Assembly: GCF_900258505.1 (NCBI RefSeq) | Contig: NZ_LT984895.1 | Location: 1,727,102-1,791,101, forward strand | DNA length: 64,000 bases | From: Brachybacterium timonense | GTDB taxonomy: Bacteria > Actinomycetota > Actinomycetes > Actinomycetales > Dermabacteraceae | Direction: 5' to 3' | Program-made: the position numbers and the translations under genes | Shown here: one piece after another, positions 1 through 49,759 of the stretch | Layout of the letters: each line of letters opens with the position of its first letter | Position numbering within the stretch: the first letter of the stretch is position 1 | Notes under the pieces: model-generated | Database searches by the model: none | The model's input: only the letters and a program-made list of their open reading frames with translations | Told to the model about the DNA's origin: nothing

Positions 1-218
1 CGAGGCGATCGTCCGCCTCGTCGGCGCGGTCCTGGCCGAACAGACCGACGAATGGGCCGAAGGGCGACGCTATCTCGGACTCGACGTCCTCGCCCGCTGC
101 CGCCTCAACCTCGTCCCCGACACCAGCGCCGAGGAGGTCACCGCAAGCTCCCTGCCCGCACTGACAGCCTGACCCCTCCCAGCGAAGGATCGCTACACCA
201 CTTCCAGGGACTTGACCC
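1..218 (+). mobile_element. IS256-family insertion sequence, right end only
   Basis: Only the right end of the element lies in the window. It comprises the 3' end of a transposase gene (stop at 170-172) and a short terminal region. The last bases read roughly CACTTCCAGGGACTTGACCC (201-218+), which resembles the terminal inverted repeats I know from actinobacterial IS256 (Mutator) elements. From about position 224 the sequence becomes recognisable hsdR coding sequence, so the boundary lies near 218-223. The left end and any target-site duplication are outside the window. The exact last base of the element is inferred. Confidence 0.75.
2..172 (+). CDS. IS256 family transposase, C-terminal fragment
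   Basis: The reading frame is open from the window edge to TGA at 170-172 and encodes the last 56 residues of a transposase. The segment around QTDEWAEGRRYLGLDVLAR is typical of the C-terminal tail of IS256/Mutator transposases, downstream of the DDE catalytic core. The catalytic residues lie off the window, so activity cannot be judged. The gene points into the restriction locus, and its insertion point coincides with the loss of the 5' part of the neighbouring hsdR. Confidence 0.78.
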   Translation, partial: EAIVRLVGAVLAEQTDEWAEGRRYLGLDVLARCRLNLVPDTSAEEVTASSLPALTA

Positions 219-1832
219 AGCCTTTCCACGTGTACACGATGCAGCAGGCCATCGAGGATGGGTTTTATCCTTGATGTGCTGCGTAACTACACGACTTATG
301 AGACGGCTTTCCAGCTCGCTCAGAGAGCTGGTGGTGCTGTTGGTGGTGAAGATCTCGTCGATGAGGGCACCGCGAAAGAGAGCCTCATGCGGTGGGTGAG
401 TCTGCATCCGGCAAACATTGTTCAGAAGGTTCAGATCATCGTCGAGCATTTCCGCGAGAATGTTGCTGAGCTCCTCGATGGACACGCTAAGGCGATGGTG
501 GTGACCTCGAGCCGAGCCGCTGCGCTGAAGTACAAGATGGCAATCGATGCTTATGTTGAGAAACACAATTACCCATTGGGAACCTTGGTGGCGCTCTCCG
601 GAAGCTTAACCGCTGAGCAGATTGATGATTTCGTGCCCGGAGTGCAGGAGTCATATACAGAAACGAACATGAACCCTGACCTGCGCGGGCGCGGGATTCC
701 ACAGGCGTTCGCGGGCGATCAGTTCCAGGTTCTGATTGTTGCCAACAAGTACCAGACGGGCTTTGATCAGCCGTTGCTGTTCGCGATGTACGTGGACAAA
801 CGCCTTGACGGGATCGAAGCGGTCCAGACGCTTTCCCGTCTGAACCGTACCCTGCCGTCGAAGGGTAAAGACACCATGTACATTCTTGACTTCGTCAACG
901 ACACGGACACGATCCTCGACGCACTCCTGCCGTACTACCGCACTGCCGAAATCATTGAAACTACCGACCCAGACCTCGTGCATGACCTTGCGCGGAAGCT
1001 TGAAATTGCCGGGATCTATACGAAGGATGACGTGGATGCCTTCGCGCAGGCATTCATCATCGAGAAGAAGCACGGTAAGCACACTGCACCGCTGAAGCAA
1101 GCCGCTGATCGGTTCAATGACCACTACGTCGCAGCCTTGGCCGACAACACAAAGGCCGAGATTGACGAGCTTGACCTCTTCCGCAAGGACGTTGGCCCAT
1201 TCGTGCGCCTCTACGATTTCCTGTCTCAGGTTGTCGACTATCAGGACACCGACCTCGAGAACCTCGCCCTGTTCCTCCGGCTACTACGACCGCGACTTAC
1301 TGGTCGCAAGACTCCAGAAGAGCTGGACTTTAACAACATCGAGCTCACCCTCATCAAGCAGACGCGCCAGAGCGAAGGAGCTATTTCACTCGGCGGCGAC
1401 GGCGAGAAGCTCAACCCGATGGGAGTTGGCGGTGGACGTTCGCGCGACCCGCACCTGGTGGCCTGGGAAGAAACCCTGAACAACATCAATTCCCTGTTTG
1501 AGGACGAAGAGTTTGACCCTGGTTCAGTGGAGTCTTGGGGACAGGGCGTCGTCACGATTCTGGTTCAGAATGAAGAGATTAAGGATCAGGTCAACGCAAA
1601 CACCAAGGAGCAGTTTCGTGAGTCGCAGACGATCGAAACTGCCGTCACGAATGCGGTGCTCGATCACCAGGACTCCCAGCAAAACATCATGGAGAAGTTC
1701 TTCGAAAGCGCTCATCGTAAGGGCCAGATCATTAAAGAGATCTCCGACCTTGTTTACTGGGAGCTTCGCCACCAGGCTGAGAAGGATACACAGCCTCAAG
1801 ACGATGAAGAGGATGACATCGACCAGGAGTAG
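219..1832 (+). pseudogene. hsdR: Type I restriction enzyme R subunit, 3' remnant
   Basis: This is the C-terminal half of a type I HsdR. Coding similarity begins right after the IS end with FHVYTMQQAIEDGF (224-265), the standard sequence at the end of the helicase lobe. A run of four T (263-266) then shifts the frame by one base. The rest continues as 525 codons from 258. Helicase motifs V/VI are visible (TGFDQPLL near 760, QTLSRLNRT near 830), followed by the helical C-terminal domain that contacts the methylase. The nuclease domain and Walker A/DEAH lobe are missing. It is lower in GC than the second hsdR and is not its duplicate. Truncation plus frameshift make it a pseudogene. Confidence 0.85.
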
Positions 1833-2028
1833 CAATTGCTGCGCGCGAAATCCCGACTGGTTCACCCCTCTACGGAAGACAGCCGGGGTAGCGGCGTGCC
1901 GGACACTCAACGGTTAAGCAGCCTAATCTCCAAACGACGGCGACGGTACGAATTCCCAGTTCATAGCCGGTCTCGGCGCTATCGGATAGCACCACTCCGC
2001 ACTGGGGTCTTGTATCCATCGTGACCAG
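1833..2028 (+). other. Non-coding scar between the two type I remnants
   Basis: The 196 bases between the hsdR remnant stop and the first recognisable hsdM codon show no coding similarity on either strand to the adjoining restriction genes. A TAG at 1987-1989 closes the hsdM frame from upstream. A minus-strand frame across 1870-2017 reads smoothly but I do not recognise it. The stretch looks like leftover DNA from the deletion that removed the 5' half of hsdM. Confidence 0.5.
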
Positions 2029-2940
2029 TTGTGCGACCCCACTTGCGGCACGGGCGGCATGCTCATCTCCACCGCCGCCGAACTGAAGCGGCAGGGCAAG
2101 GAGTGGCGGAATCTGCGCCTCTACGGTCAGGAGCTCAACTACGGGACCTCGGCCATCGCGCGGATGAACCTGTTCCTGCACGGCATCACAGACGGCCACA
2201 TCGCCCACGGCGACACCTTGAGCCGACCGGCGTTCCTCGACGGCAAGGGCCGTCTGCAGACGTTCGACGTCGTGCTGGCAAACCCGCCCTACTCCATCAA
2301 GGCGTGGAACCGCGCTGCGTTCGCCAAGGACCCGTACGGCCGCAACGTGTGGGGCGTGCCCCCACAAGGACGTGCGGACTACGCGTTCTTCCAGCACATC
2401 GCCAAGAGTCTCGACCCCAATACGGGCCGCGCTGCGATCCTCTTCCCCCACGGGGTGCTCTTCCGGCGTGAAGAGTCAGCCCTGCGTGAAGCACTGGTGA
2501 AGTCCGACCTGATCGAATGCGTTCTCGGGCTCGGCGCAGGGCTTTTCTATAACAGCCCCATGGAGGCCGTGGTCGTCACGCTCCGCGCCAACAAGCCCGC
2601 CGAGCACCGGGGCGAGGTGCTGTTCATCAACGCCGTGAACGAGGTCGCTCGCGAACAGGCGCAATCGTTCCTACGTGAGTCGCACCAGCACAAAATCCTG
2701 GACGCCTATCGCGACTTCGAGCCACAGGACGGGTTCTCAGCAGTCGCCACTCTCGCCCAGATCGCTGAGAAAGGCCACAGTCTCGCGCTTCCGTTGTACG
2801 TCGCCGGCGAATCCGCCAAGGAATCAGGCGGGCAAATCGACGTCGACGATGCGGTGACGCAGTGGCGAGCTGCCGCGCAGGCGTCGGATGAGGCAGTCGC
2901 TGACGTTCTCGCGCTGTTGCGAGCGGAGGTGACCGCGTGA
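2029..2940 (+). pseudogene. hsdM: Type I modification methylase, 5'-truncated
   Basis: HsdM is the N6-adenine methyltransferase that, as M2S, methylates the target sequence and forms the core of the R2M2S complex. The reading frame begins almost exactly at SAM-binding motif I (DPTCGTGG, residues 3-10 from a TTG at 2029) and retains catalytic motif IV NPPY near residue 85. The usual 480-520 residue protein is cut to 303: the helical N-terminal domain and the part of the methylase fold before motif I are gone, and an in-frame TAG at 1987 rules out a longer frame. The stop overlaps the hsdS start by 4 bp. It is probably inactive. Whether any protein is made from the TTG is unknown. Confidence 0.78.
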
Positions 2941-4106
2941 GGCTCAACCTCGACAAGTCGCACTGGAAGCGGGTCGCCTTCGGCGACGTTGTTCGCAACG
3001 TCAATGAGACCGTCCGCGATCTCGAAGCGGCCGGCATCGACCGCGTCATCGCGACGGAGCACATGGACCCCGGCGAGCTGAAAATCAGCCGGTGGGGTTC
3101 AACAGAGGACGGCACCACATTCACACGACGCGTGAAGCCTGGACAGACGCTCTTCGGCAAGCGCCGCGCATACCAGCGCAAGGTCGCCTACGCTGAGTTC
3201 GACGCCATCTGCTCTGGTGACATCTACACCTTCGAGGCGGATGAGACGCAGCTTCGCGGAGACCTGCTTCCGTTCCTAGTCCAGTCGGACGGCTTCTTCG
3301 AGCATGCACTCGGCACATCAGCCGGCTCGCTGTCACCGCGCACGAACTGGCGTGAACTGAAGGGCTTCGAGTTGGACCTACCGCCCCTCGATGAGCAAAG
3401 GCGCATCGCCGATCTCCTCTGGGCCGTCGAGCGAGCGGCGAACGCGCAGGTTGAACGGCGCGTCGCACTGAGCGGCGCACGACAGGCGTGGCTTGACCGC
3501 CAGATCGCTCGATTCGTGGCGTCCAGGACAGTCGATTTCGCCGAGACATGGGCCCGGTCGCCTGAGAGCGGATACTCGTCGGCCCCGGTCGGCGAGGTCA
3601 CCGGGCGCTATGTCCTTTCACTCTCCGCACTCGGGCCCGAGGGCTACCGACCGGGGAACCTGAAGAACGTCCCGGACAGCGAGAGGAGCCGGGCTGCCGT
3701 ACTCCGGCGCGGCGACCTCCTTGTGTCCCGAGCGAACACTGTGGATGCCGTCGGTAGGGTCGGCATCTACTCCGAGCATCGAGATGACGTTTCGTTCCCC
3801 GACACAATGATGCGGCTCAGTCTTCGGGACGACGTCGCACCAGAGTTCGCTGCCGCCGTCATCGGTAGTACCCATGGAAGGGCTCACATGCGTCGCTCAG
3901 CAGCAGGGAGCGCGACCAGCATGGTGAAGATCAACAGGACATCGCTTGGCCGCTTGCCTTTCCCCGTCGTGGCGGTCGGGGAGCAAAAGATGTTGCTAGA
4001 GCGCTTGTCCGTACTCAATCGAGGGATCGTCACGGTGGACTCAGAAGTCCAACGGCTTTCGAACTTGAAGGCTGCGCTCCTCGCCGACGTCCTTGGGGGC
4101 AACTGA
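2937..4106 (+). CDS. hsdS: Type I restriction specificity subunit S
   Basis: HsdS recognises the bipartite DNA target and holds the methylase and nuclease subunits together. The 389 residues show the usual two-part build: a first target-recognition half (about 1-155), a conserved helical spacer containing LPPLDEQRRIADLL (about 150-165), a second recognition half (about 190-345), and the matching end motif FPVVAVGEQKMLLERL. The GTG start overlaps the hsdM stop by 4 bp, and the stop overlaps the hsdR start in TGATG. The gene appears full length although its methylase partner is truncated. The target sequence cannot be predicted from sequence. Confidence 0.9.
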   Translation: MRLNLDKSHWKRVAFGDVVRNVNETVRDLEAAGIDRVIATEHMDPGELKISRWGSTEDGTTFTRRVKPGQTLFGKRRAYQRKVAYAEFDAICSGDIYTFEADETQLRGDLLPFLVQSDGFFEHALGTSAGSLSPRTNWRELKGFELDLPPLDEQRRIADLLWAVERAANAQVERRVALSGARQAWLDRQIARFVASRTVDFAETWARSPESGYSSAPVGEVTGRYVLSLSALGPEGYRPGNLKNVPDSERSRAAVLRRGDLLVSRANTVDAVGRVGIYSEHRDDVSFPDTMMRLSLRDDVAPEFAAAVIGSTHGRAHMRRSAAGSATSMVKINRTSLGRLPFPVVAVGEQKMLLERLSVLNRGIVTVDSEVQRLSNLKAALLADVLGGN

Positions 4107-7042
4107 TGGCGCAGTTCAACGAGGCGAACTCGGTCCGTGATTTCATCCGGGACCGGGTGGAGTCTGATGACGTCCAATTCGTGCCGGGCAACGAGCTGCC
4201 GCGTCGTACCGACGAGGTGCTGCTGGAAGGTGTGCTCAAGGGCGCACTCATCCGCTTCAACCCGGAGATCGAGGCGGACCCTGCGAAGGCAGATGAGGTC
4301 ATCTACAACCTCCGCGCCATCCTGATCGCCGCCCGCAACAGCCCGCATCCGGTGGTCGCCAACGAGGAGTTCATGGCCTGGCTGACCGGGCAGAAGTCGA
4401 TGCCGTTCGGGCCGAACGGCGAGCACACCACGGTCCGGCTGATTGACTTCGACCATCTCGACGAGGACTCGTCGAACCAGTGGATCGTCTCGACCGAGGT
4501 GACCTTCAGGCAGGGCCGTCTGGAGAAGCGATTCGATCTCGTGCTGTGGTGCAACGGCCTGCCTCTCGTGGTGGGCGAGGCGAAGACTCCGATCCGGCCG
4601 GCGTACACCTGGATTGACGGGGCTGCGCAGATCCACGATGACTACGAGCAGAGCGTCCCGCGGTTCTTCGTGCCCAACGTGTTCTCGTTCGCGACCGAGG
4701 GCAAGGACTTCCGATACGGCACCATCGGCATGCCGGTGGAGCTCTGGGGGCCCTGGCGCGAAGACCCGACCGATGAGGACGCGCCGGCGAAGATCGGTCT
4801 CGTCGCGGTCCAAGAGGCCGTCGAAGGCGTCCTCGCTCCCCGTTCGGTGCTCGACTTCCTGCGGTTCTTCACCCTTTACGCGACTGACAAGAATCACCGC
4901 AAGATCAAGATCATCGCGCGGTTCCAGCAGTTCCAGGCGACGAATCTGATCGTCGACCGAGTACTGCTCGGCAAGGTCAAGCAGGGCCTGATCTGGCACT
5001 TCCAGGGCTCGGGCAAGTCACTGCTCATGGTCTTCACTGCGCTCAAACTGCGCGCGATGGCCGAGCTCACGAACCCGACGGTCCTGATCGTGGTCGACCG
5101 CATCGACCTGGACACCCAGATCACGGGCACCTTCAACGCCTCGGACGTCCCGGGCTTGGTGTCGACGGACTCGCGAGCGCAGCTCCAGACGCTGCTCAGC
5201 CAGGGAGCGCGGAAGATCATCATCACCACGATTCACAAGTTCGGTGAGGCACCTGGCGTCCTCGATGCCCGGCAGAACATCATCGCGATGGTCGACGAGG
5301 CGCATCGCTCGCAGGAGGGCGACTACGGGCAGAAGATGCGTGAGGCTCTGCCCAACGCGTACCTCTTCGGTCTGACCGGCACGCCGATCAACCGGCGCGA
5401 CCGCAACACGTTCAAGTGGTTCGGTGCACCCGAGGACGAGGGCGGGTACCTGTCGCGGTATTCATTCCAGGACTCCATCCGCGACGGTGCGACCCTTCCG
5501 TTGCACTTCGAACCACGACTCTCAGAAATCCACATCGACCAGGAGGCGATCAACGCGGCGTTCGAGGAACTTGCCACGGATCGCGATCTGTCCGAGAGCG
5601 ACAAGATCACCCTCTCGAAGAAGGCGGCCTCGATCGAGGTGCTGATCAAGACGCCCTCGCGCATCGCAAAGATCGCCGCCGACATCGCCGCCCACTTCCA
5701 ATCCAAAGTGGAGCCCCAGGGTTTCAAGGCGCAGGTCGTCGCGTACGACAAGGCCTCCTGCGTGGCGTACACGAACGAGCTCGACAAACACCTCGGGCCC
5801 GAGGCATCGACCATCGTCATGTCGAAGACCCGAGGTGACTCGCCCGACTGGGCCAAGTGGACCCCGGGTGCCGAGGAGCTTGAGCAGGTTGTCGCGCGGT
5901 TCAACGACCCGACCGACCCGCTCAAGATCATCATCGTGACTGCGAAGCTGCTGACCGGGTTCGACGCTCCGATCCTCTACTGCCAGTACCTCGACAAGCC
6001 ACTGAAGGAGCACACGCTGCTCCAGGCGATCACTCGCACCAACCGCGTGTACCCGCCGGACAAGACCCACGGCCTGATCGTCGATTACCTCGGCATCTTC
6101 GACGACGTCGCCCGATCCCTCTCCTTCGACGAGCAGGCTGTCCGGGAGGTCGTCTCCAACATCGAGGAGCTGAAGGCTCAGCTCGCGCCGGCGATGGCTG
6201 CCGCACTCGCGTTCTTCCCCGGTGTCGACCGCACGGTCGGCGGGTACGAAGGCCTCGTCCAGGCACAATCCGCGATCGCTGACGATGTCACGAAGGACGC
6301 CTTCGGGGCGGCCTACAGCGTGGTGTCACAGCTGTGGGAGGCACTCAGTCCTGACCCCATGCTGGGCGAACATCGCGATGACTACCGCTGGCTCTCGGAT
6401 GTCTACGAGTCAGTACGCCCTTCGGACATCACGGGGCGACTCGTGTGGCACGCGCTCGGAGCCAAGACGATCGACCTGATCAACGAGCACGTTGCCGTCG
6501 AGATCCCGCAGAACGCCGAGACGATCGTGCTCGACGCGCAGACGATCGAAGACCTCATGACCGGTCGGCGCACCGACATCCCGGCCGAAGAGATCGAGAA
6601 GCAGATCACCGCACGCATCGCCAGGCACCTGCACAACCCGGTCTTCATTGAGCTCGGTCAGCGACTCAACGACCTGCGCGAGCGCTACGCCGACATCCAG
6701 CAGTCCAGCCTCGACTTCCTGCGCGAGCTCCTCGAGCTCGCCCGAGACACCGTCGCGGCCGAGAAGGCAGTAGACGAGGTGCCCCGCGAAGAACAGGGCA
6801 AAGCGGCCCTGACGGAGCTGTTTGATGCTCTCAAGGGCGATCAGACCCCGATCATCGTCGAGAACGTCGTCAACCGGATCGACGAGGTCGTCCGTGGGGT
6901 CCGCTTCGAGGGGTGGCAGTCCACGGTCCGCGGCGACCAGGAGGTCCGCAAAGCTCTGCGGAAAACTCTCTACGTCCAGTTCAAGATCCGCGATAACGAC
7001 GTCTTCGAGAAGGCCCTCGGCTACGTCCGGGAGTACTACTGA
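4106..7042 (+). CDS. hsdR: Type I restriction endonuclease subunit R
   Basis: HsdR is the translocating motor and nuclease of type I restriction. The 978-residue protein is full length. The N-terminal nuclease domain carries FDLVLW...GEAKTP (about residues 145-165), a PD-(D/E)xK-type site. The Walker A loop FQGSGKS is near residue 300, the DEAH-type box VDEAHR near 395 and motif III LTGTP near 420. The second helicase lobe ends with TGFDAP and the QAITRTNR arginine-finger motif. A helical C-terminal domain follows. Its start overlaps hsdS and its stop overlaps the next gene (TGATG). Higher GC and different sequence show it belongs to another type I family than the remnant at 219-1832. Confidence 0.94.
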   Translation: MAQFNEANSVRDFIRDRVESDDVQFVPGNELPRRTDEVLLEGVLKGALIRFNPEIEADPAKADEVIYNLRAILIAARNSPHPVVANEEFMAWLTGQKSMPFGPNGEHTTVRLIDFDHLDEDSSNQWIVSTEVTFRQGRLEKRFDLVLWCNGLPLVVGEAKTPIRPAYTWIDGAAQIHDDYEQSVPRFFVPNVFSFATEGKDFRYGTIGMPVELWGPWREDPTDEDAPAKIGLVAVQEAVEGVLAPRSVLDFLRFFTLYATDKNHRKIKIIARFQQFQATNLIVDRVLLGKVKQGLIWHFQGSGKSLLMVFTALKLRAMAELTNPTVLIVVDRIDLDTQITGTFNASDVPGLVSTDSRAQLQTLLSQGARKIIITTIHKFGEAPGVLDARQNIIAMVDEAHRSQEGDYGQKMREALPNAYLFGLTGTPINRRDRNTFKWFGAPEDEGGYLSRYSFQDSIRDGATLPLHFEPRLSEIHIDQEAINAAFEELATDRDLSESDKITLSKKAASIEVLIKTPSRIAKIAADIAAHFQSKVEPQGFKAQVVAYDKASCVAYTNELDKHLGPEASTIVMSKTRGDSPDWAKWTPGAEELEQVVARFNDPTDPLKIIIVTAKLLTGFDAPILYCQYLDKPLKEHTLLQAITRTNRVYPPDKTHGLIVDYLGIFDDVARSLSFDEQAVREVVSNIEELKAQLAPAMAAALAFFPGVDRTVGGYEGLVQAQSAIADDVTKDAFGAAYSVVSQLWEALSPDPMLGEHRDDYRWLSDVYESVRPSDITGRLVWHALGAKTIDLINEHVAVEIPQNAETIVLDAQTIEDLMTGRRTDIPAEEIEKQITARIARHLHNPVFIELGQRLNDLRERYADIQQSSLDFLRELLELARDTVAAEKAVDEVPREEQGKAALTELFDALKGDQTPIIVENVVNRIDEVVRGVRFEGWQSTVRGDQEVRKALRKTLYVQFKIRDNDVFEKALGYVREYY

Positions 7043-8751
7043 TGAGAGTGCGACAGTTTCGCCTGGAGAGGTATCGATCCATCCTCAAGAGTGAGGGCAT
7101 GGATCTTCGAACTATGACGGTTCTCGTCGGTCCAAACAACGAAGGAAAGTCGAACATCCTGCGTGGTCTCGTCGTTGGCCTACGTGCAATATCCGACATC
7201 GGCAAGGGCGCGCCCTATCCCGCGCGCGGCCGCGGACGGCGGGATGACTGGGACTTCGAAACGTACACGTGGGAATCAGACATCCCCGATTCTGTCAGGT
7301 CAGCAAAACCGAACTCGGCAACGGTCCTCGAGTTCGACTTCGAGCTCAACGACGACGAGATTGAAGAATTCAAGGAACGAACGAAGAGCGCCAATAACGG
7401 CACATTGAAAGTTCGTCTGCGCCTGTACCGCGGACGGCGCGAGATGCAAATCATCAAACAGGGACCCGGCAGCAAGAAGATCAACGAGAAGAAGGTCGCC
7501 ATCGCGAAGTTCATCTCGGAGCAAGTTCGCGTGCAGTACATCCCTGCGTCTCGCCCAGCGTTTGAATCGGTCTCGTTGATGCGCGCCGAGGTGGGTTCTC
7601 GTCTCGCGGCGTTGGAAAGCGATCAAGAGTACCGAGAGGCGCTGGAGGTCGTGCTCGAGCGCCGCAAGGATGCCCTTTCACCGCTCGGCACGTCAGTCAC
7701 TGATGCCCTTCGACGCTTCCTCCCAAACGTTGAGTCAGTCGAGATCGAGCCGTCTGGGCGGGACTACTTTGGAGTGAATCCGTGGGCCTGGACAGAGTTC
7801 GACTTCATGGTCGACGACGGAGTGAAGACGCCTCTGGCGTCAAAGGGTGACGGGGTGCAGAGCCTTGCCGCGATCTCTTTGGCGCACTCACTGGCGCAGG
7901 CGAACAATAAGTCGGACCTAATCCTCGCAGTCGAAGAGCCTGAGGCCCATCTTCACCCCTCAGCGGTTCACGAGCTTCGCGCAGTTCTGGATGAGATTGC
8001 CCATGACCAGCAGGTGGTCATTACAACTCACAGCCCTCTCCTCGTGAGTCGTGGTGATGTCGCGGGCAACGTCATCATCAGGCAGAACCGTGCGGTCCAA
8101 GCGGGTTCACTCGGCCAGATCCGGGACATCCTCGGGGTACGGATCGAGGATAACCTTCAGTCGGCGAGCGTCGCCCTGCTAGTTGAAGGCCTCAGTGACA
8201 AAAGGATCATCCAGACGCTTCTGGCTGGCGAGAGCCCGATAATCCAGTCCGCGTTGACTGACGGCGCGCTCCGGATAGAGATTACAACCGGCGCGAGCAA
8301 TGTCGCTTACCAGTTCCGTCATTTCTACGACAGTGTCTGCCGCGTTCACGTACTACTAGACTCCGACGCTGCTGGGCGCAAGGCACTCGAAGCTCTCGAG
8401 AAGGAGCACGGCTTCAGCCATCTTGACGCGACCATGGTGAGGGTCGTCGGCATGAACGACTCGGAGGTGGAAGATCTGCTCGACGAAGCATTCCTGGGAC
8501 CGGACATCCTCGCTCGATTCAACGTGACCCTGGATCCTGCTCACACTCACCCGCAAAAGAAGTTCAAGCGGCGAATGCAAGACTACTTCGCAGGCTCGGG
8601 TCAAGGTTGGACTAAGGCGATCGAGGACGACCTCAAGACCCTCGTTGCCGATGCCGTCGAGCGCGATCCCGTCGCCGCCCTTCGAGCCGACCGAAGAGGG
8701 CCTCTCGATGCCCTCGTTCGCGAAATTGAATCCAAGCTAGAAGCGTCGTGA
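7042..8751 (+). CDS. OLD-family ATP-dependent nuclease (AAA/ABC ATPase + TOPRIM)
   Basis: The 569-residue protein joins an ABC/SMC-like ATPase to a TOPRIM nuclease domain, the architecture of OLD-family proteins. Visible are Walker A GPNNEGKS (residues 30-37), a signature-like SKGDGVQSL (about 267-275), Walker B LILAVEEPEAHLHP (293-306) with an H-loop TTHSP, then TOPRIM glutamate in LLVEGLSDK (E382) and the DxD in LLDSDAAG (D440, D442). OLD proteins act in phage exclusion and in Gabija-type defence. The ATG overlaps the hsdR stop (TGATG), so it is probably the last gene of the restriction operon. No UvrD-like partner follows. Composition is lower in GC than the chromosome. Role in defence is inferred from family and context. 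Confidence 0.85.
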   Translation: MRVRQFRLERYRSILKSEGMDLRTMTVLVGPNNEGKSNILRGLVVGLRAISDIGKGAPYPARGRGRRDDWDFETYTWESDIPDSVRSAKPNSATVLEFDFELNDDEIEEFKERTKSANNGTLKVRLRLYRGRREMQIIKQGPGSKKINEKKVAIAKFISEQVRVQYIPASRPAFESVSLMRAEVGSRLAALESDQEYREALEVVLERRKDALSPLGTSVTDALRRFLPNVESVEIEPSGRDYFGVNPWAWTEFDFMVDDGVKTPLASKGDGVQSLAAISLAHSLAQANNKSDLILAVEEPEAHLHPSAVHELRAVLDEIAHDQQVVITTHSPLLVSRGDVAGNVIIRQNRAVQAGSLGQIRDILGVRIEDNLQSASVALLVEGLSDKRIIQTLLAGESPIIQSALTDGALRIEITTGASNVAYQFRHFYDSVCRVHVLLDSDAAGRKALEALEKEHGFSHLDATMVRVVGMNDSEVEDLLDEAFLGPDILARFNVTLDPAHTHPQKKFKRRMQDYFAGSGQGWTKAIEDDLKTLVADAVERDPVAALRADRRGPLDALVREIESKLEAS

Positions 8752-8821
8752 GCGTCCGCAGCGACCCGATTCCCTGCCCAATGGGCACTGGGGCGGCCAC
8801 CGCCACGTATGCTTCCTGTGA

Positions 8822-9958
8822 CTACCGCGTCGCGTAGAACGCCACAGCCGCCGACGCCGCCACGTTCAACGAGTCCACCCCGTGCATCATCGGGATCGTC
8901 ACCCGGCGGTCGAGCCGGCGGTCGGCCTGGCGCGTCAGGCCGTGGCCCTCGGTACCGAACACCAGCGCGAGGTGCGGATGGTCCTCCTCGACCAGCTCGT
9001 CGAGGGTGATCGCGCCCTCTCCCAGGGTCATGCCGGCGACGACGTACCCATGCTCCTTAATCATGTCGATGTCCGCAGGCCATGAGTCGATGCGCGCCCA
9101 GGGGACCTGGAACACCGTTCCCATCGAGACCCGGATCGATCGACGGTACAGCGGGTCCGCGCAACTGGGGGTGACGAGGACGGCGTCCACGCCGATCGCC
9201 GCTGCTGACCTAAACGCGGCTCCGAGATTCGTATGATCGACGATGTTCTCGAAGATCGCGATCCGCGAGCGGCGCTTCGTATTCGAGGCAGAACGATTAT
9301 CTCGCCCCGCTGAACTCTCGCCAGGAGCTGGCGTCCTGCGCCGCTCCTTACCGCTGGACACGCCAGAGCTCAGTTCGAACGTATCGTCGACCTCGCTTTT
9401 CACTACCTTGGGCTGCCAAGGTCGGCTCGTATCCGAGGAGAGATTCCCGGTCTGCGGTGGTTTGGATCCGCCCACGTTGGTGTGGTCCACGATGTTCTCC
9501 AGCACGGCGATCCGGGCTCGGGGCGCATCGGCCAGTGGCGCCACCAGCTCCTGAACCGACGGCAGAACGGGCCGTTGCATCGCCGCGAGCGCTCCACGGT
9601 GCAGGTGGAAGCCCGTCAGCTGCTCCAGCAGAGCCTCCTCCCCCACGAACACCGGTGCCTCCGGAGCGCGGGCACACAGAGGGGCGAAGCGCTCCAACCA
9701 GGTGGGGCTCATGAGAAAGGAGCGCGGCTGCATACCGGCGCCAAGGGCCCGGGAGATCACTTCGTAGCTCTCGGCCATGAACAGGCCGCGCTCGACCTCC
9801 ATCCGGGAGCGAAGGCGCACGTCCGTCATCCGCACGTAGTCGTCGAGGGCGGGATCCTCGAGGTCCTCGACCAGGCGGATCTGCGCGGCCAGCGGGGAGC
9901 CGACGATCTGCTCGGGCAGGGTGAGTCGCCCCGCCAATGCAGAGTGCTCGCGATCCAT
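8822..9958 (-). CDS. TrmH/SpoU-family RNA 2'-O-methyltransferase with internal duplication
   Basis: This SPOUT-class RNA ribose methyltransferase has an N-terminal substrate-binding domain (about residues 20-145) and a C-terminal knotted SAM-binding domain (from about 232), with the motifs FRSAAAIGVDAVL, FGTEGHGL and IPMMHGVDSLNVAASAAV. The usual length is near 270-300; this one is 378. The excess is a second copy of the start of the SPOUT domain. RIAVLENIVDHTNVG (149-163) is followed by a 68-residue hydrophilic insert and RIAIFENIVDHTNLG (232-246), after which the domain continues normally. The frame stays open throughout. The two copies differ mostly at synonymous positions. The 3' part faces the restriction island, suggesting the SPOUT half arrived with it. 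Confidence 0.88.
   Translation of the reverse strand: MDREHSALAGRLTLPEQIVGSPLAAQIRLVEDLEDPALDDYVRMTDVRLRSRMEVERGLFMAESYEVISRALGAGMQPRSFLMSPTWLERFAPLCARAPEAPVFVGEEALLEQLTGFHLHRGALAAMQRPVLPSVQELVAPLADAPRARIAVLENIVDHTNVGGSKPPQTGNLSSDTSRPWQPKVVKSEVDDTFELSSGVSSGKERRRTPAPGESSAGRDNRSASNTKRRSRIAIFENIVDHTNLGAAFRSAAAIGVDAVLVTPSCADPLYRRSIRVSMGTVFQVPWARIDSWPADIDMIKEHGYVVAGMTLGEGAITLDELVEEDHPHLALVFGTEGHGLTRQADRRLDRRVTIPMMHGVDSLNVAASAAVAFYATR
9221..9514 (-). repeat. Diverged 45-bp direct repeat flanking a 204-bp in-frame insert in the trmH-like gene
   Basis: Copies at 9470-9514 and 9221-9265 encode the same 15-residue motif with three conservative changes (V/I, L/F, V/L). I count 32 of 45 identical bases, with the longest exact match ACGATGTTCTC. 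The insert between them (9266-9469) encodes a Ser/Arg/Lys/Pro-rich stretch I do not recognise and appears lower in GC than its surroundings. A recent tandem duplication would give identical copies, so recombination with a diverged ortholog fits better. Confidence 0.8.
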
Positions 9959-46417: not shown

Positions 46418-47812
46418 TCACGCCGGAGGCGGGGTGACCTCCTGGGTGTGCGAACGGATCTGATCCAGGAGCGCATCAACCTGATCGGACTGTGTGCAGA
46501 ACGGGTCGAGGATCTGCACGGGGGTGGATCCGGAGCGGGTCAGCCGCATGGTGGTCCAGTCCACGACATGGTCCACACGATGCTCCTGCGCGGTGCGCAC
46601 CACCTGTCCGCGCAGGTGCGCGCGGGTCGTGGACGGTGCAGTGGTGCGCGCCTGCTCGATCCGGTCCGCTCCGAGGATGCGTGGGGCGCGGCCGCGCTCC
46701 TGCAGGGACGCGTGCAGGGAACCGTCGGGGCCAATGTCGTGATAGGCCAGGTCGAGGCGTTCGATCGCGGGATCGGCAAGGTTCACGCCGCGACGCGTGG
46801 ACACCTGTGTGAACAGCTCTTCTTTGATCGCCCAGTCCAGTCGTGTGCGTGCCCAGCTGCGGTCTGCAGTGCGCACGGCATCCAGGGCGCGTTGCCAGGT
46901 CTCCAGGGCGTCGATCTCGTCGGGCTCGGTGGTGTCTGCGGCGTCGGCAGCGAGGTCGTGCCAGCGCTGCTGGATCTCCAGCGCGGTTGTGGTGCCACCG
47001 CTGGCCAGGGGAATCTGCTGCGTACCGGTGAGGTCGCGGGCCACGGCGCGGATCGCGGAGATCGGATCCTCGAGAGCGAGGTCGGGCAGCGCCTGGCCGG
47101 ATTCGATCACGCGCAACACCAGGTCGGTGGTGGCAAAGCGCAGCCAGGTGGACAGCTCACTCATGGTGGAGTCACCGGAGATCACGTGCAGTCGCCGGAA
47201 ACGGCTGGGGTCCCCGTGTGGTTCATCGCGGGTGTTGATGATCGGGCGAGTCCGTGTGGTGGCGGAGGAGACCGTTTCCCACATGTGGTCGCTGCGGCGG
47301 GAGAAGACGAATCGCCCTGTTCCGTCAGGTTCGATCACCACGCCACCGGCGCCGGTGACGATCTGCCGGGTGATCAGGAAAGGCAGCAGGTGCTGGGGCA
47401 GGCGAGTGAATTCGCCACGCCGGTCCACCAGGTAGTTCTCGTGGGAGCCGAAGGAGTTGCCTGCGGAATCCACGTTGTTCTTGAACAGGTGGACCCGCGC
47501 ATCGTTGCCGTCATCAGCCAAGCGCTCATTGACCTGGGCGACAAGGTTCGCGAAGATCTGTTGCCCGGCGACGTCCTGAGCAACGAGTTCCCACCAGGAG
47601 TCGCATTCAGCGGTGGCGTACTCGGGGTGGGAGCCGACGTCCAGGTAGAGGCGCGCCCCATTGGTGAGGAACACGTTGGAGGAGCGCCCCATCGCGACGA
47701 CGGGTCGGAAGAGCTCGCGGGCTGCCTGCTCGGGTTCGAGTCGGCGCGACCCATCGGGGCCGACGCAGACGATTCCGAACTCGGTCTCGAGCCCGCCCAC
47801 GCGACGCCGCAT
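46418..47812 (-). CDS. pafA: Pup-protein ligase PafA
   Basis: Joins the C-terminal glutamate of Pup to lysines of target proteins, using ATP. Start ATG 47812 follows GGGGGAGAG. The 464-residue protein is a carboxylate-amine ligase related to glutamine synthetase. Motifs: MRRRVGGLETEFGI at the N-terminus (metal/ATP glutamates), NGARLYLDVGSHPEYAT with the catalytic aspartate, HLFKNNVDSAGNSFGSHENYL and [11 protein letters not shown]. The C-terminal Pup-binding domain is present. It is 79 bp after pup. In proteasome-bearing actinobacteria prcB and prcA lie between pup and pafA; here they do not. Confidence 0.97.
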   Translation of the reverse strand: MRRRVGGLETEFGIVCVGPDGSRRLEPEQAARELFRPVVAMGRSSNVFLTNGARLYLDVGSHPEYATAECDSWWELVAQDVAGQQIFANLVAQVNERLADDGNDARVHLFKNNVDSAGNSFGSHENYLVDRRGEFTRLPQHLLPFLITRQIVTGAGGVVIEPDGTGRFVFSRRSDHMWETVSSATTRTRPIINTRDEPHGDPSRFRRLHVISGDSTMSELSTWLRFATTDLVLRVIESGQALPDLALEDPISAIRAVARDLTGTQQIPLASGGTTTALEIQQRWHDLAADAADTTEPDEIDALETWQRALDAVRTADRSWARTRLDWAIKEELFTQVSTRRGVNLADPAIERLDLAYHDIGPDGSLHASLQERGRAPRILGADRIEQARTTAPSTTRAHLRGQVVRTAQEHRVDHVVDWTTMRLTRSGSTPVQILDPFCTQSDQVDALLDQIRSHTQEVTPPPA

Positions 47813-47891
47813 CAGCTCTCCCCCATCGGCTGCGATCCCGTGCTCCCGCGGCGATGAACCGTGCTGACAGGACTGGAGTTCGCCATGGTGG

Positions 47892-48077
47892 TCACTGCCC
47901 GCCCTTTTGCACGAAGGAGCGGACGAACGCTTCAGCGTTCTCTTCGAGCACGGAGTCGATCTCGTCGAGGATGTCGTCGGCGCCCTGCGCGGAGGCGAAG
48001 GTCTGGCCGCCCTCGACGTTCTCGATCGGCTGGTCGTCGTCGCCGGGGCCGCCGGCATGGATGGTCTGCTGGGTCAT
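47892..48077 (-). CDS. pup: Prokaryotic ubiquitin-like protein Pup
   Basis: A 61-residue disordered modifier. The C-terminal half carries the ARC/PafA-binding helix (DDILDEIDSVLEENAEAF) and ends VRSFVQKGGQ. The last residue is Gln, so Dop must deamidate it to Glu before PafA can use it. The ATG overlaps the dop stop by 4 bp, so modifier and deamidase are made together. Confidence 0.97.
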   Translation of the reverse strand: MTQQTIHAGGPGDDDQPIENVEGGQTFASAQGADDILDEIDSVLEENAEAFVRSFVQKGGQ

Positions 48078-49759
48078 GATCGCTCCTTCACATCGGTGGT
48101 GGTGGCGCGTTCGAGCGCGTGCAGGATCTCGGGCAGCGGCTCAGTGGGGTCGATGCCGTGAGTGGCGCACCAGTGTGCTGAGCCGGCGCGGGGGTCGGCG
48201 AGCCGCAGCCGCACCCGTTTCGCGTCGGTGCCCAGGGTCAGCACGTCCCAGCCGGCGCTCGCGACGGCGTGACGGTGCGCGCCGATGAGGCTGCCGCGCA
48301 GGTGCGCGCGGGTGGTGGCTGGCGGTGTGGTGACGGCCTGGTCGATCTCGTGGTCAGTGACCACGCGGCGGGTGCGGCCGGTGCTGATCATCTTCTGCGC
48401 GATCCCCTTGCCGGCTCGCAGATCCGACCATTGCAGGTCGATCGCGGCAAGGCGCGCGTCCTCGGGCGTGAGCCCGTGGCGGTCTGCGTAGCGCTCGAGC
48501 AGCGCCTGTTTGGTGGTCCATTCCAGGCGGCCCTGCGTAGCCAGGGGGTCCTGGTCGAGCAGGTCGAGCAGCTCGCGCCAGCGCTGCAGCACGTCAGCTG
48601 TCTCCGCGTCGTCGAGATCAGCGATCGTGGTGATCGCCTCGAGGTAGCGGCGCTGTACGTCGAGCGCTGATGCCGTGGCACCATCACGCAGCGGCACACG
48701 GGTGCGCAGCGTGGGATCGTGGCTGATCTCGCGCAGTGCCGTGACGGGGCTCGCCAGCGCCACGTCAGGGAGCACGCGGGTGCCGGCGCAGTGTTCGTGC
48801 TCCAGCGCGGCGAGCACCAGCGAGGTCATGCCGAGTGCGAGATAGGTCGGCTCCTCGAGGGTGGTGGCATCCCCCAGGATGACGTGCAGGCGGCGGTGGC
48901 GGGAGGCGTCCGCATGGGGTTCGTCCCGCGTGTTGATGATGGGACGGTTCATGGTGGTCTCCAGCCCCACTTCCTCTTCGAAGAAGTCGGCGCGTGAGGA
49001 GATCTGGTAGCCCGGCTCCTGGCTGCGAGTGCCGCGGCCCACACGTCCGGCGCCGACGAGGATCTGCCGGGTGACCAGGAACGGGGTGAGCGCTTCGACC
49101 ACACGGTCGAAGGGCACGGCGCGGTCGAGCAGATAGTTCTCGTGGGTGCCGTAGCTGGAGCCCTTGGAGTCGGTGTTGTTCTTGTACAGCACAGCCGCGG
49201 GGACCTCACCGGCCTGCTCGAGCAGATCCATGGCCCGGCGGGCGATCCGCTCCCCCGCGCGATGCCAGATCACGCCGTCACGAGCCGTGGTGACCTCCGG
49301 CCCGGAATATTCAGGGTGGGCGTGGTCCACGTACCAGCGGGCACCGTTGCGCAGCACGGCGTTACCGATGGAGCGGTGCACTGCCCACTGCAGGATGTCT
49401 GCGTCGGTGCCGTCAGGAGCGATCTCAGGTGCCTGCAGGGGGGCGTCAAGGTCGATGCTGGGCACATGGGCCCCGTGCGCGTCAGGCACGGCATCGGTGA
49501 GCTGGCTGGGGTGGGCGGCGGCACGCTGCAGCTCGAATCCACGGGCGTCGCGCAGCGGTGTCTCATCGCCGTAATCCCAGCGCACTCGGGTGCCGCGCTC
49601 CCCTTCGCTGTTCTCCAGCAGGGCATAGGCACCCACCACCAGATGCGAGAGCAGCACGGAGCTGGCGGCGCCGCGGCGTTCGCGCTCTGCGGGGTCGGCA
49701 TGGACGATGCCGAACTCGGTCTCGATGCCCATCACGCGTTCGGTGCGGATCCCGGTCAC
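48074..49759 (-). CDS. dop: Pup deamidase/depupylase Dop
   Basis: Converts the C-terminal Gln of Pup to Glu and removes Pup from substrates. The 561-residue paralog of PafA begins [11 protein letters not shown] and has a roughly 35-residue segment after residue 40 (GYALLENS... region) that contains the Dop-specific loop. [18 protein letters not shown] carries the catalytic aspartate, followed by [20 protein letters not shown] and [12 protein letters not shown]. It overlaps arc (ATGA) upstream and pup downstream. Dop versus PafA identity rests on length, loop and position next to arc. Confidence 0.96.

Follow-up and report, generated by a model that had tools for sequence, protein, structure and literature searches.

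Defence islands in a TrmH-family methyltransferase gene of actinobacteria: evidence for integration with replacement of the catalytic domain

We studied a gene for a TrmH/SpoU-family (SPOUT) RNA methyltransferase in a 64,000-nucleotide stretch of the Brachybacterium timonense genome (contig NZ_LT984895.1, positions 1,727,102 to 1,791,101), here called the window, whose own numbering is used unless a genome or locus is given. The gene is one open frame of 378 codons on the minus strand (8822..9958), and we put at about 90% the probability that it is the left junction (attL) of an island that integrated into a host trmH and replaced its catalytic domain. We observed both junctions of the island, the displaced 3' end of the host gene, the same islands at the same codon in unrelated hosts, discordant histories of the two halves of the gene, and purifying selection on the replacement module.

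The chimeric gene and the two island junctions

The host-derived part (9476..9958, minus strand) comprises the N-terminal domain and a first copy of a conserved motif up to ...DHTN; it groups differently from the SPOUT domain (see below), and the crossover lies after the AAC at 9476. This first copy, RIAVLENIVDHTNVG (9470..9514, minus), contains the crossover, with the core AAC at 9476-9478. Next comes the attP arm, i.e., the island end translated as a linker, GGSKPPQTGN...NTKRRS (9266..9475, minus), which is near-identical in [Zimmermannella] faecalis and much shorter in G127 (G and L numbers are the genomes and stretches compared; G000 is the window's own genome). The island-borne replacement SPOUT domain (8822..9265, minus) opens with the second motif copy, RIAIFENIVDHTNLG (9221-9265); its origin is borne out by a 98% identical protein in the genome of another family and by the ratio of nonsynonymous to synonymous substitution rates (dN/dS; see below).

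A sequence-only reading of the window had pointed to 15 codons recurring with the same protein apart from three conservative changes, and reading the sequence again gave the same result, with 32 of 45 bases identical between the copies, both on the minus strand. The 204 bp that separate them (9266-9469, 68 codons) leave the frame unbroken. Their composition is different, as had been proposed, and so is that on the two sides of 9470: GC content and GC content at third codon positions were 0.689 and 0.857 in the host N part, 0.618 and 0.652 in the linker, and 0.669 and 0.872 in the SPOUT module. The Pfam SpoU_methylase match covered residues 234-375 only, confirming that the SPOUT domain runs on from the second copy. 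The best NCBIfam model for the chimeric protein was RlmB TIGR00186, with 101 bits against a cut-off of 160, and the protein failed the RlmB/TrmH equivalog cut-off. The supposed insert of an unrecognised linker does lie between the two motif copies and is not an unrelated sequence: host DNA ends at ...AAC and island sequence starts directly after it, so the linker is the end of the island translated in frame.

The suggestion of an integration or recombination junction was upheld at the other end of the island, outside the window, where the original 3' end of the gene was found. A profile search of G000 gave seven SpoU_methylase matches, one of which, near 1719371-1719793 on the strand of the chimera, begins inside the domain and lies in a 176-residue open frame without an N domain. 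This displaced remnant (G000:C1 1719371-1719772, minus strand) adjoins attR (G000:C1 ~1719772), where the DNA reads ...CTGTGACCGCCTCCAAC|GTGGGGCCATCTTCCGATCG..., with SPOUT sequence from A-I-F-R-S-A-A-A-L-G and foreign sequence before it. The two junctions are 16,805 bases (16.8 kb) apart. The whole island (G000:C1:~1719773-1736576, of which positions 1..9475 fall within the window) contains additional inserted DNA as well as a one-base gap in the assembly immediately ahead of the window start. Past the remnant are imuA', imuB and dnaE2, while an ABC ATPase and an RNB exonuclease flank the other side (names from open reading frame (ORF) reading). In 19 of 20 genus loci with the ordinary gene (A class, see below) a distance of 1.6-9.6 kb, occupied by other genes, separates imuA from trmH, and no imuA was seen in L076; in G000 the remnant is only about 120 bases away from imuA'.

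The search for att sites around the linker yielded att-like junctions at both island ends. In a listing of attL sites anchored on the motif, the host side of all 20 ended in ...GACCACACsAAC or close to it, with the crossover at the same codon in the 20. The island side started with GTGkGyGGwyc or close to it in most linker-type islands; it deviated more in L155, L161 and L167 and was degenerate in L178 and L156, L173 being of a type without linker. The attR arms fell into a few types. At the crossover, island and host have only a short stretch of identity in common, which is what serine integrases, and not homologous recombination, would be expected to use. Dyad symmetry of the att sites amounted to 13-15 matching pairs for Kamino (a phage, see below), G153, L151 and L173 and to fewer in the others, in counts made without a control.

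In the mechanism that we propose, the attachment site of the island would be the trmH-family gene, and the window gene its left end. A presumed circular form of the island would recombine at the D-H-T-N codons, at the start of the SPOUT domain. This would sever the host catalytic domain and leave it as a headless fragment beyond the island, while the island end would serve as in-frame coding sequence: the attP arm, followed by an entire SPOUT domain that includes a first strand and DHTN of its own. The product would consist of the host N domain, a vestigial first strand, the linker and the island SPOUT domain, presumably under the host promoter. The position of the crossover within the domain would account for the duplicated motif: to restore the domain, the island has to bring all of it.

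Judged from coding-sequence comparisons, the replacement module is under strong purifying selection: dN/dS was 0.020-0.046 in 15 pairs of module copies (dS 0.14-1.0), and the residues that we take to be the SPOUT motif residues fall in invariant columns of an alignment of 18 sequences. The fusion protein is predicted to be an active methyltransferase.

Related islands in other hosts and the histories of the two halves

The same island was found in G127, a genome of another family, in the Brevibacterium group. Its order is N domain, GGRKPPQQQGGESGPKH, SPOUT (98.0% amino acid identity), OLD-like protein (98.8%), HsdR (96.8%), HsdS (30%), HsdM, a second HsdM, a resolvase-like protein (93.8%), attR and SPOUT remnant; matches below 40% identity were left out of the island comparison, G127 included. 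Window island and G127 are 94.6% identical in DNA over 5,188 bp, whereas the host N domain of G127 is 57-61% identical to that of the window and its native SPOUT remnant 56.9% identical to the window module. [Zimmermannella] faecalis (L148) carries nearly the window linker, a resolvase-like protein 97% identical and a remnant of the ordinary class opposite, with 9.8 kb between the crossovers. It holds the sole other 68-residue linker found, together with the same island; the window architecture and linker were not seen in a relative free of the island. Modules 95-97% identical, with shorter linkers, occur in Kocuria coralli and in Aeromicrobium sp. PE09-221; the latter belongs to the order Propionibacteriales and Brachybacterium to Micrococcales.

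A second island type, with the 17-residue linker CGPKLAHPEPAAEPRRRS, was present at seven loci in at least five genera and carries type I restriction-modification (RM) genes, mostly with Mrr (5 of the 7 islands). The linker is identical in four of them, Brachybacterium alimentarium (G001, which is L183), G082, Kocuria subflava and Arsenicicoccus bolidensis (L168 and L180), and varies in three (L181, L182 and L184: Leucobacter chironomi and two Brevibacterium). Compared with G001, the six others have HsdM 90-99% and HsdR 91-95% identical and HsdS only 33-39%, and the specificity subunit has therefore been exchanged; the stretches compared were L060, L133, L168 and L180-L184. All seven also encode a 123-residue protein at the attR side (L060:10832-11203, minus strand; copies in L133, L168 and L180-L184), 73-100% identical and with no match in a Pfam search, in the place where the first island type has its resolvase-like gene. 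In a third type (G021, G153 and Kocuria soli L173), the fusion is at the same codon without a linker. In both G279 and Arthrobacter sp. NIO-1057 the site holds tandem insertions.

Among 43 loci examined, 14 had the double motif and 11 a second SPOUT piece downstream (flank of 10 kb or less), one of these being a short fragment. In an order-wide draw, 33 of 396 genomes, from 8 families, had a SPOUT domain at least 70% identical to that of the window, a cut chosen for convenience since identities fall off gradually. The proposal of a hotspot for type I/OLD cassettes therefore holds as regards the site, which is recurrent in many hosts and no one-off, but not as regards the cargo, which is varied and reaches beyond type I/OLD.

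Relatives lacking the restriction genes were compared within the genus. Of 38 genomes, 10 had a SPOUT domain of the window class (B, 69-100% identical to the window), 24 one of another class (A, about 52-61%), two had partial genes only and two no close match, matches below 45% identity being left out of these searches. The 24 A-class genomes have the ordinary gene without linker; the genes of G003 and G028 end early. In the SPOUT tree of the genus (36 rows, without G015, G032, which has 13 residues only, G027, G031 and G033) class B formed one clade of 10 rows, with a support of 100 in the Shimodaira-Hasegawa-like approximate likelihood ratio test. In the N-domain tree (34 rows, without G015, G027, G031 and G033), the same genomes were scattered, and class B required 8 changes, equal to the mean of 8.0 after shuffling. 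In G008 and G037 the 96-residue N domains are identical, yet the SPOUT domains are B and A, respectively. At the scale of the order, the six closest modules formed one clade in the SPOUT tree (99), which was rejected on the N domains by the approximately unbiased (AU) test (p-AU 1.24e-82; 70 rows, 9 with an unmatched N-domain pattern and L170, L185 and L188 being left out); these six are 48-61% identical to the window gene in the N domain and 94-98% in SPOUT. The C-terminal part thus groups with other species than the N-terminal part, as had been anticipated.

The recombinase question and rival explanations

A possible counterpart was found in phages. Thirteen of 50,697 records in a phage collection matched the module, and the three best, 67% identical to that of the window, were the Streptomyces phages Kamino (PP750867; once) and Sitrop (MT701598; twice), in which the module lies directly beside a large serine integrase. 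The headless SPOUT module is at L245:4001-4444 in Sitrop and L246:3947-4456 in Kamino. In Kamino, AACGTGGGCGC lies between integrase and SPOUT module, with a short linker before RIAVFEDVVDHTNLGAG; read from the integrase start, GCGAACAACGTGGGCGCG, a short linker and RIAVFEDVVDHTNLGAGFRSAAALG follow, an arrangement like that of the islands. From the headless SPOUT adjoining the integrase, Kamino and Sitrop are predicted to integrate in trmH. The available part of the Kamino paper names the integrase and mentions no target gene, and that of the Camvirus paper, on related phages, mentions neither TrmH nor attB. A search of IMG/VR with the Kamino module gave one contig, apparently Sitrop itself.

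The checked islands yielded no active recombinase, and in phages a large serine integrase adjoins the SPOUT module; the catalyst therefore probably acts in trans. By analogy with Kamino and Sitrop it would most likely be a serine integrase, and the order integrase, linker and SPOUT in Kamino leads us to prefer a large one. The resolvase-like protein of the islands, which lacks the catalytic Ser (see below), would then be an accessory DNA-binding factor. Compatible with the data, although less likely than not, is a wider scenario, in which integrase-less defence islands are satellites in at least two actinobacterial orders that, on entering a cell, remove the catalytic domain from a housekeeping RNA methyltransferase and put their own in its place; phages targeting trmH, Kamino and Sitrop among them, would supply the large serine integrases that recombine the islands in trans, the catalytically dead small serine recombinase beside attR (in the other type, the 123-residue protein) would be a site-binding or directionality factor, and repeated entry and loss would leave lasting domain swaps.

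It is rather doubtful that the islands are moved by their own small serine recombinase, which would have to act despite the missing serine or together with an active partner. The gene in G000 (P0001, G000:C1 1720000-1720587, plus strand, outside the window) matched PF00239 with 45.6 bits (cut-off 23.3), and HTH_7, HTH_38 and HTH_58 below their cut-offs. In support of such a role, genes of this kind are common to islands with different cargo (window island, G127, L148, L150, L151, L159, which is G093, L170 with two, and L185). They adjoin the remnant or the next SPOUT and read inward (in L150, attR lies beyond the DNA examined), with 228 bp between start codon and crossover in the window island, G127, L148 and L151. 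Their dN/dS of 0.21-0.44 indicates selection, weaker than on the SPOUT module, with a synonymous excess in the three pairs tested (p 0.0012, 0.0044 and 1.5e-6, assuming 27% synonymous sites). The upstream motif GTGTTCAATAAACC is conserved between diverged islands, being exact in five and with one mismatch in G093 and the window island; a scan of viral contigs for it gave 5 matches. Against this role, alignment with the Gin invertase, whose Ser we take to be catalytic, placed Gly at that Ser and ARSLSTS at LDRLGRS. The position is G, T or A in 8 of 9 island copies (Ser is kept in L185), the DRLGR motif is missing in 9 of 9, and islands of the second and third types have no such gene. The frame in L150 is broken as well, and G042 has a fragment only. 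Relatives outside trmH read VRVS or ARVS in 10 of 12, the other two being unreadable there. No consistent inverted-repeat pair was found between the resolvase-like gene and attR. Searches of IMG/VR with P0001 and the SPOUT module gave no confirmed match, and plasmid searches gave only resolvase relatives 41-44% identical and SPOUT relatives below 60%.

Homologous recombination or gene conversion, by which a diverged trmH 3' half and the defence genes would have been swapped in via shared sequence without site-specific recombination, is very improbable. It would agree with a conserved motif common to donor and host and with the foreign SPOUT class found without a remnant in seven genus genomes, but the identity at the island/host junctions is short, a reason to reject recombination on the RecA scale, the far end still carries the displaced 3' half, and both ends break at the same codon although the host N domains are 45-62% identical (nine pairs). 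An assembly or annotation artefact fusing two SPOUT genes has practically no chance of being the explanation: the window's genome does have a one-base gap within the island and, next to this gap, a stretch that is repeated, but the chimeric gene is gap-free and the linker fusion recurs in independent assemblies (G127 and [Zimmermannella] faecalis), which rule the artefact out. Two further candidates were discarded, an internal duplication within one gene by the different origins of the two copies in the SPOUT and N-domain trees, and an unrelated insertion forming the linker by the linker travelling with the island in [Zimmermannella] faecalis.

Some observations weigh against integration with domain replacement. 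Seven B-class genus genomes (G008, G012, G015, G019, G025, G029 and G034) have no second SPOUT piece in the 18 kb around the gene, and in G008 and G029 the neighbour of trmH resembles that of the A-class G009 (ORF reading). We read these seven as old swaps with the island since lost, vertical or homologous acquisition being other possible routes. The displaced SPOUT end in the window's genome is itself of class B in the SPOUT tree, and neither a circular form nor an empty site from the same strain was seen. The one-base gap inside the island is a single N at L008:15102, immediately ahead of the first base of the window, whose initial 50 bases are repeated 138 bp upstream; it is likely a scaffold join inside the island, and the stretches read for L148 and G127 have a gap-free island. 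Eleven island genomes were searched for three recombinase families and the positions of the matches compared with the island. Phage_integrase (PF00589) matched in 11 of 11 genomes and the large serine recombinase PF07508 in 6 of 11, in no case inside the island; Resolvase (PF00239) matched in 9 of 11, inside the island only in the Ser-less genes of G000, G127 and G093. G153 had no resolvase-domain or PF07508 match anywhere in the genome, so a helper there would have been a visitor. A tblastn search of the loci with the Kamino and Sitrop integrases gave no match, the query being an insensitive one that also missed the small genes. No active cognate integrase encoded by the element was thus found in any of the 11 islands. 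Three other features by which an integrative island restoring its target gene is recognised were found: a host gene split at two junctions, the same element and site in unrelated hosts, and an in-frame replacement under selection.

Comparison with known islands, and cargo

RlmH is a SPOUT enzyme, and the integrated elements phage 21 and e14 supply a diverged 3' part of icd, about 50 codons near the C-terminus. The present islands likewise bring a diverged 3' part of their target gene; unlike phage 21 and e14, they bring the entire catalytic domain, with a translated attachment-site linker and a duplicated motif. The staphylococcal cassette chromosome mec (SCCmec) and the Enterococcus cassette chromosome (ECC) are, in the available part of their description, islands in the methyltransferase gene rlmH with variable cargo and dyad-symmetric att sites (PMC6222049). 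The likeness is an island family in a conserved methyltransferase gene with variable cargo and a restored target; in contrast to SCCmec and ECC, the present islands cross over where the SPOUT domain begins and supply the catalytic domain in full, the target being a TrmH/RlmB-like SpoU gene cut at a domain boundary and not the 3' region of rlmH. A ccr-type large serine recombinase was found in 0 of 11 islands, unlike SCC, in a search with PF07508 and no Ccr protein as query.

Islands in dusA and trmE (Salmonella genomic island 1, SGI1) also target a tRNA-modification gene, according to the available excerpts. The dusA islands lie at the 5' end and the trmE islands at the 3' end; we know of no domain replacement for either. 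Excision of the phage-inducible chromosomal island-like elements (PLE) of Vibrio cholerae, which are anti-phage satellites, is mediated by the target phage, as far as the accessible text describes it, and may be compared with the catalysis in trans proposed here; PLE 1 differs from our islands in encoding its own large serine recombinase. Kamino and Sitrop differ from them in being whole phages with their own large serine integrase. Among the titles and openings of abstracts returned by a literature search, none described islands in trmH. The islands are thus of a known kind, that restoring its target gene as SCC and ECC do in rlmH; new are the cut at a domain boundary, the supply of a whole catalytic domain, the attachment site read as a linker, and the finding of no active recombinase in the checked islands.

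These results define a site at which defence systems have inserted repeatedly in actinobacteria, and a chimeric phylogeny of a housekeeping methyltransferase becomes explicable if its catalytic domain can be exchanged by mobile islands. Such islands can be detected simply, by a DHTN motif that is duplicated within a trmH-family gene or by a headless SPOUT fragment downstream of one. The results also raise the questions of how islands that lack an active recombinase come to integrate precisely at a single codon in so many genera, and for what reason a Ser-less serine-recombinase-like protein is retained at the island edge.

The SPOUT side of the window gene faces defence genes, as had been noted. 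On the plus strand these are an OLD-like AAA ATPase (7042..8751; Pfam AAA_15/AAA_21, best PADLOC model Old), HsdR (4106..7042), HsdS (2937..4106) and the C-terminal part of HsdM (2029..2940), with the identities to G127 given above for the first three. The N-terminal part of HsdM is outside the window (G000:C1:1720606-1721289, L008:8607-9290), i.e., hsdM is split, and the RM system is probably not functional in the window's genome. The halves (~1721283 to window ~2034) are about 7.9 kb apart, at a place where G127 has two hsdM genes; between them are a Mutator-family transposase (Pfam), an hsdR fragment, and amidohydrolase-like and siderophore-related genes (the last two by ORF reading). Window 258-1832 encodes a C-terminal piece of another type I HsdR, distinct from the first (T1R_D3-like match).

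Cargo varied among the islands with a resolvase-like gene: type I RM with the OLD-like protein, AbiLi/AbiLii-like proteins with an AriA/OLD-like ATPase (L150), and an FRG-domain protein with type I RM (L159). In L137 (G308), Wadjet JetA2/JetB2 are flanked by a B-class trmH on one side and a decayed SPOUT remnant on the other, and the 5.4-kb no-linker island of Kocuria soli has an Abi_2 gene (L173:13805-14857) with a major facilitator superfamily transporter and a MarR regulator. A gene pair with PIN domain and helix-turn-helix (ORF reading), perhaps a stability module, lies near the SPOUT remnant in both G040 (L097 reverse-complement 4587-5563) and G021 (47085-48502, joined stretch).
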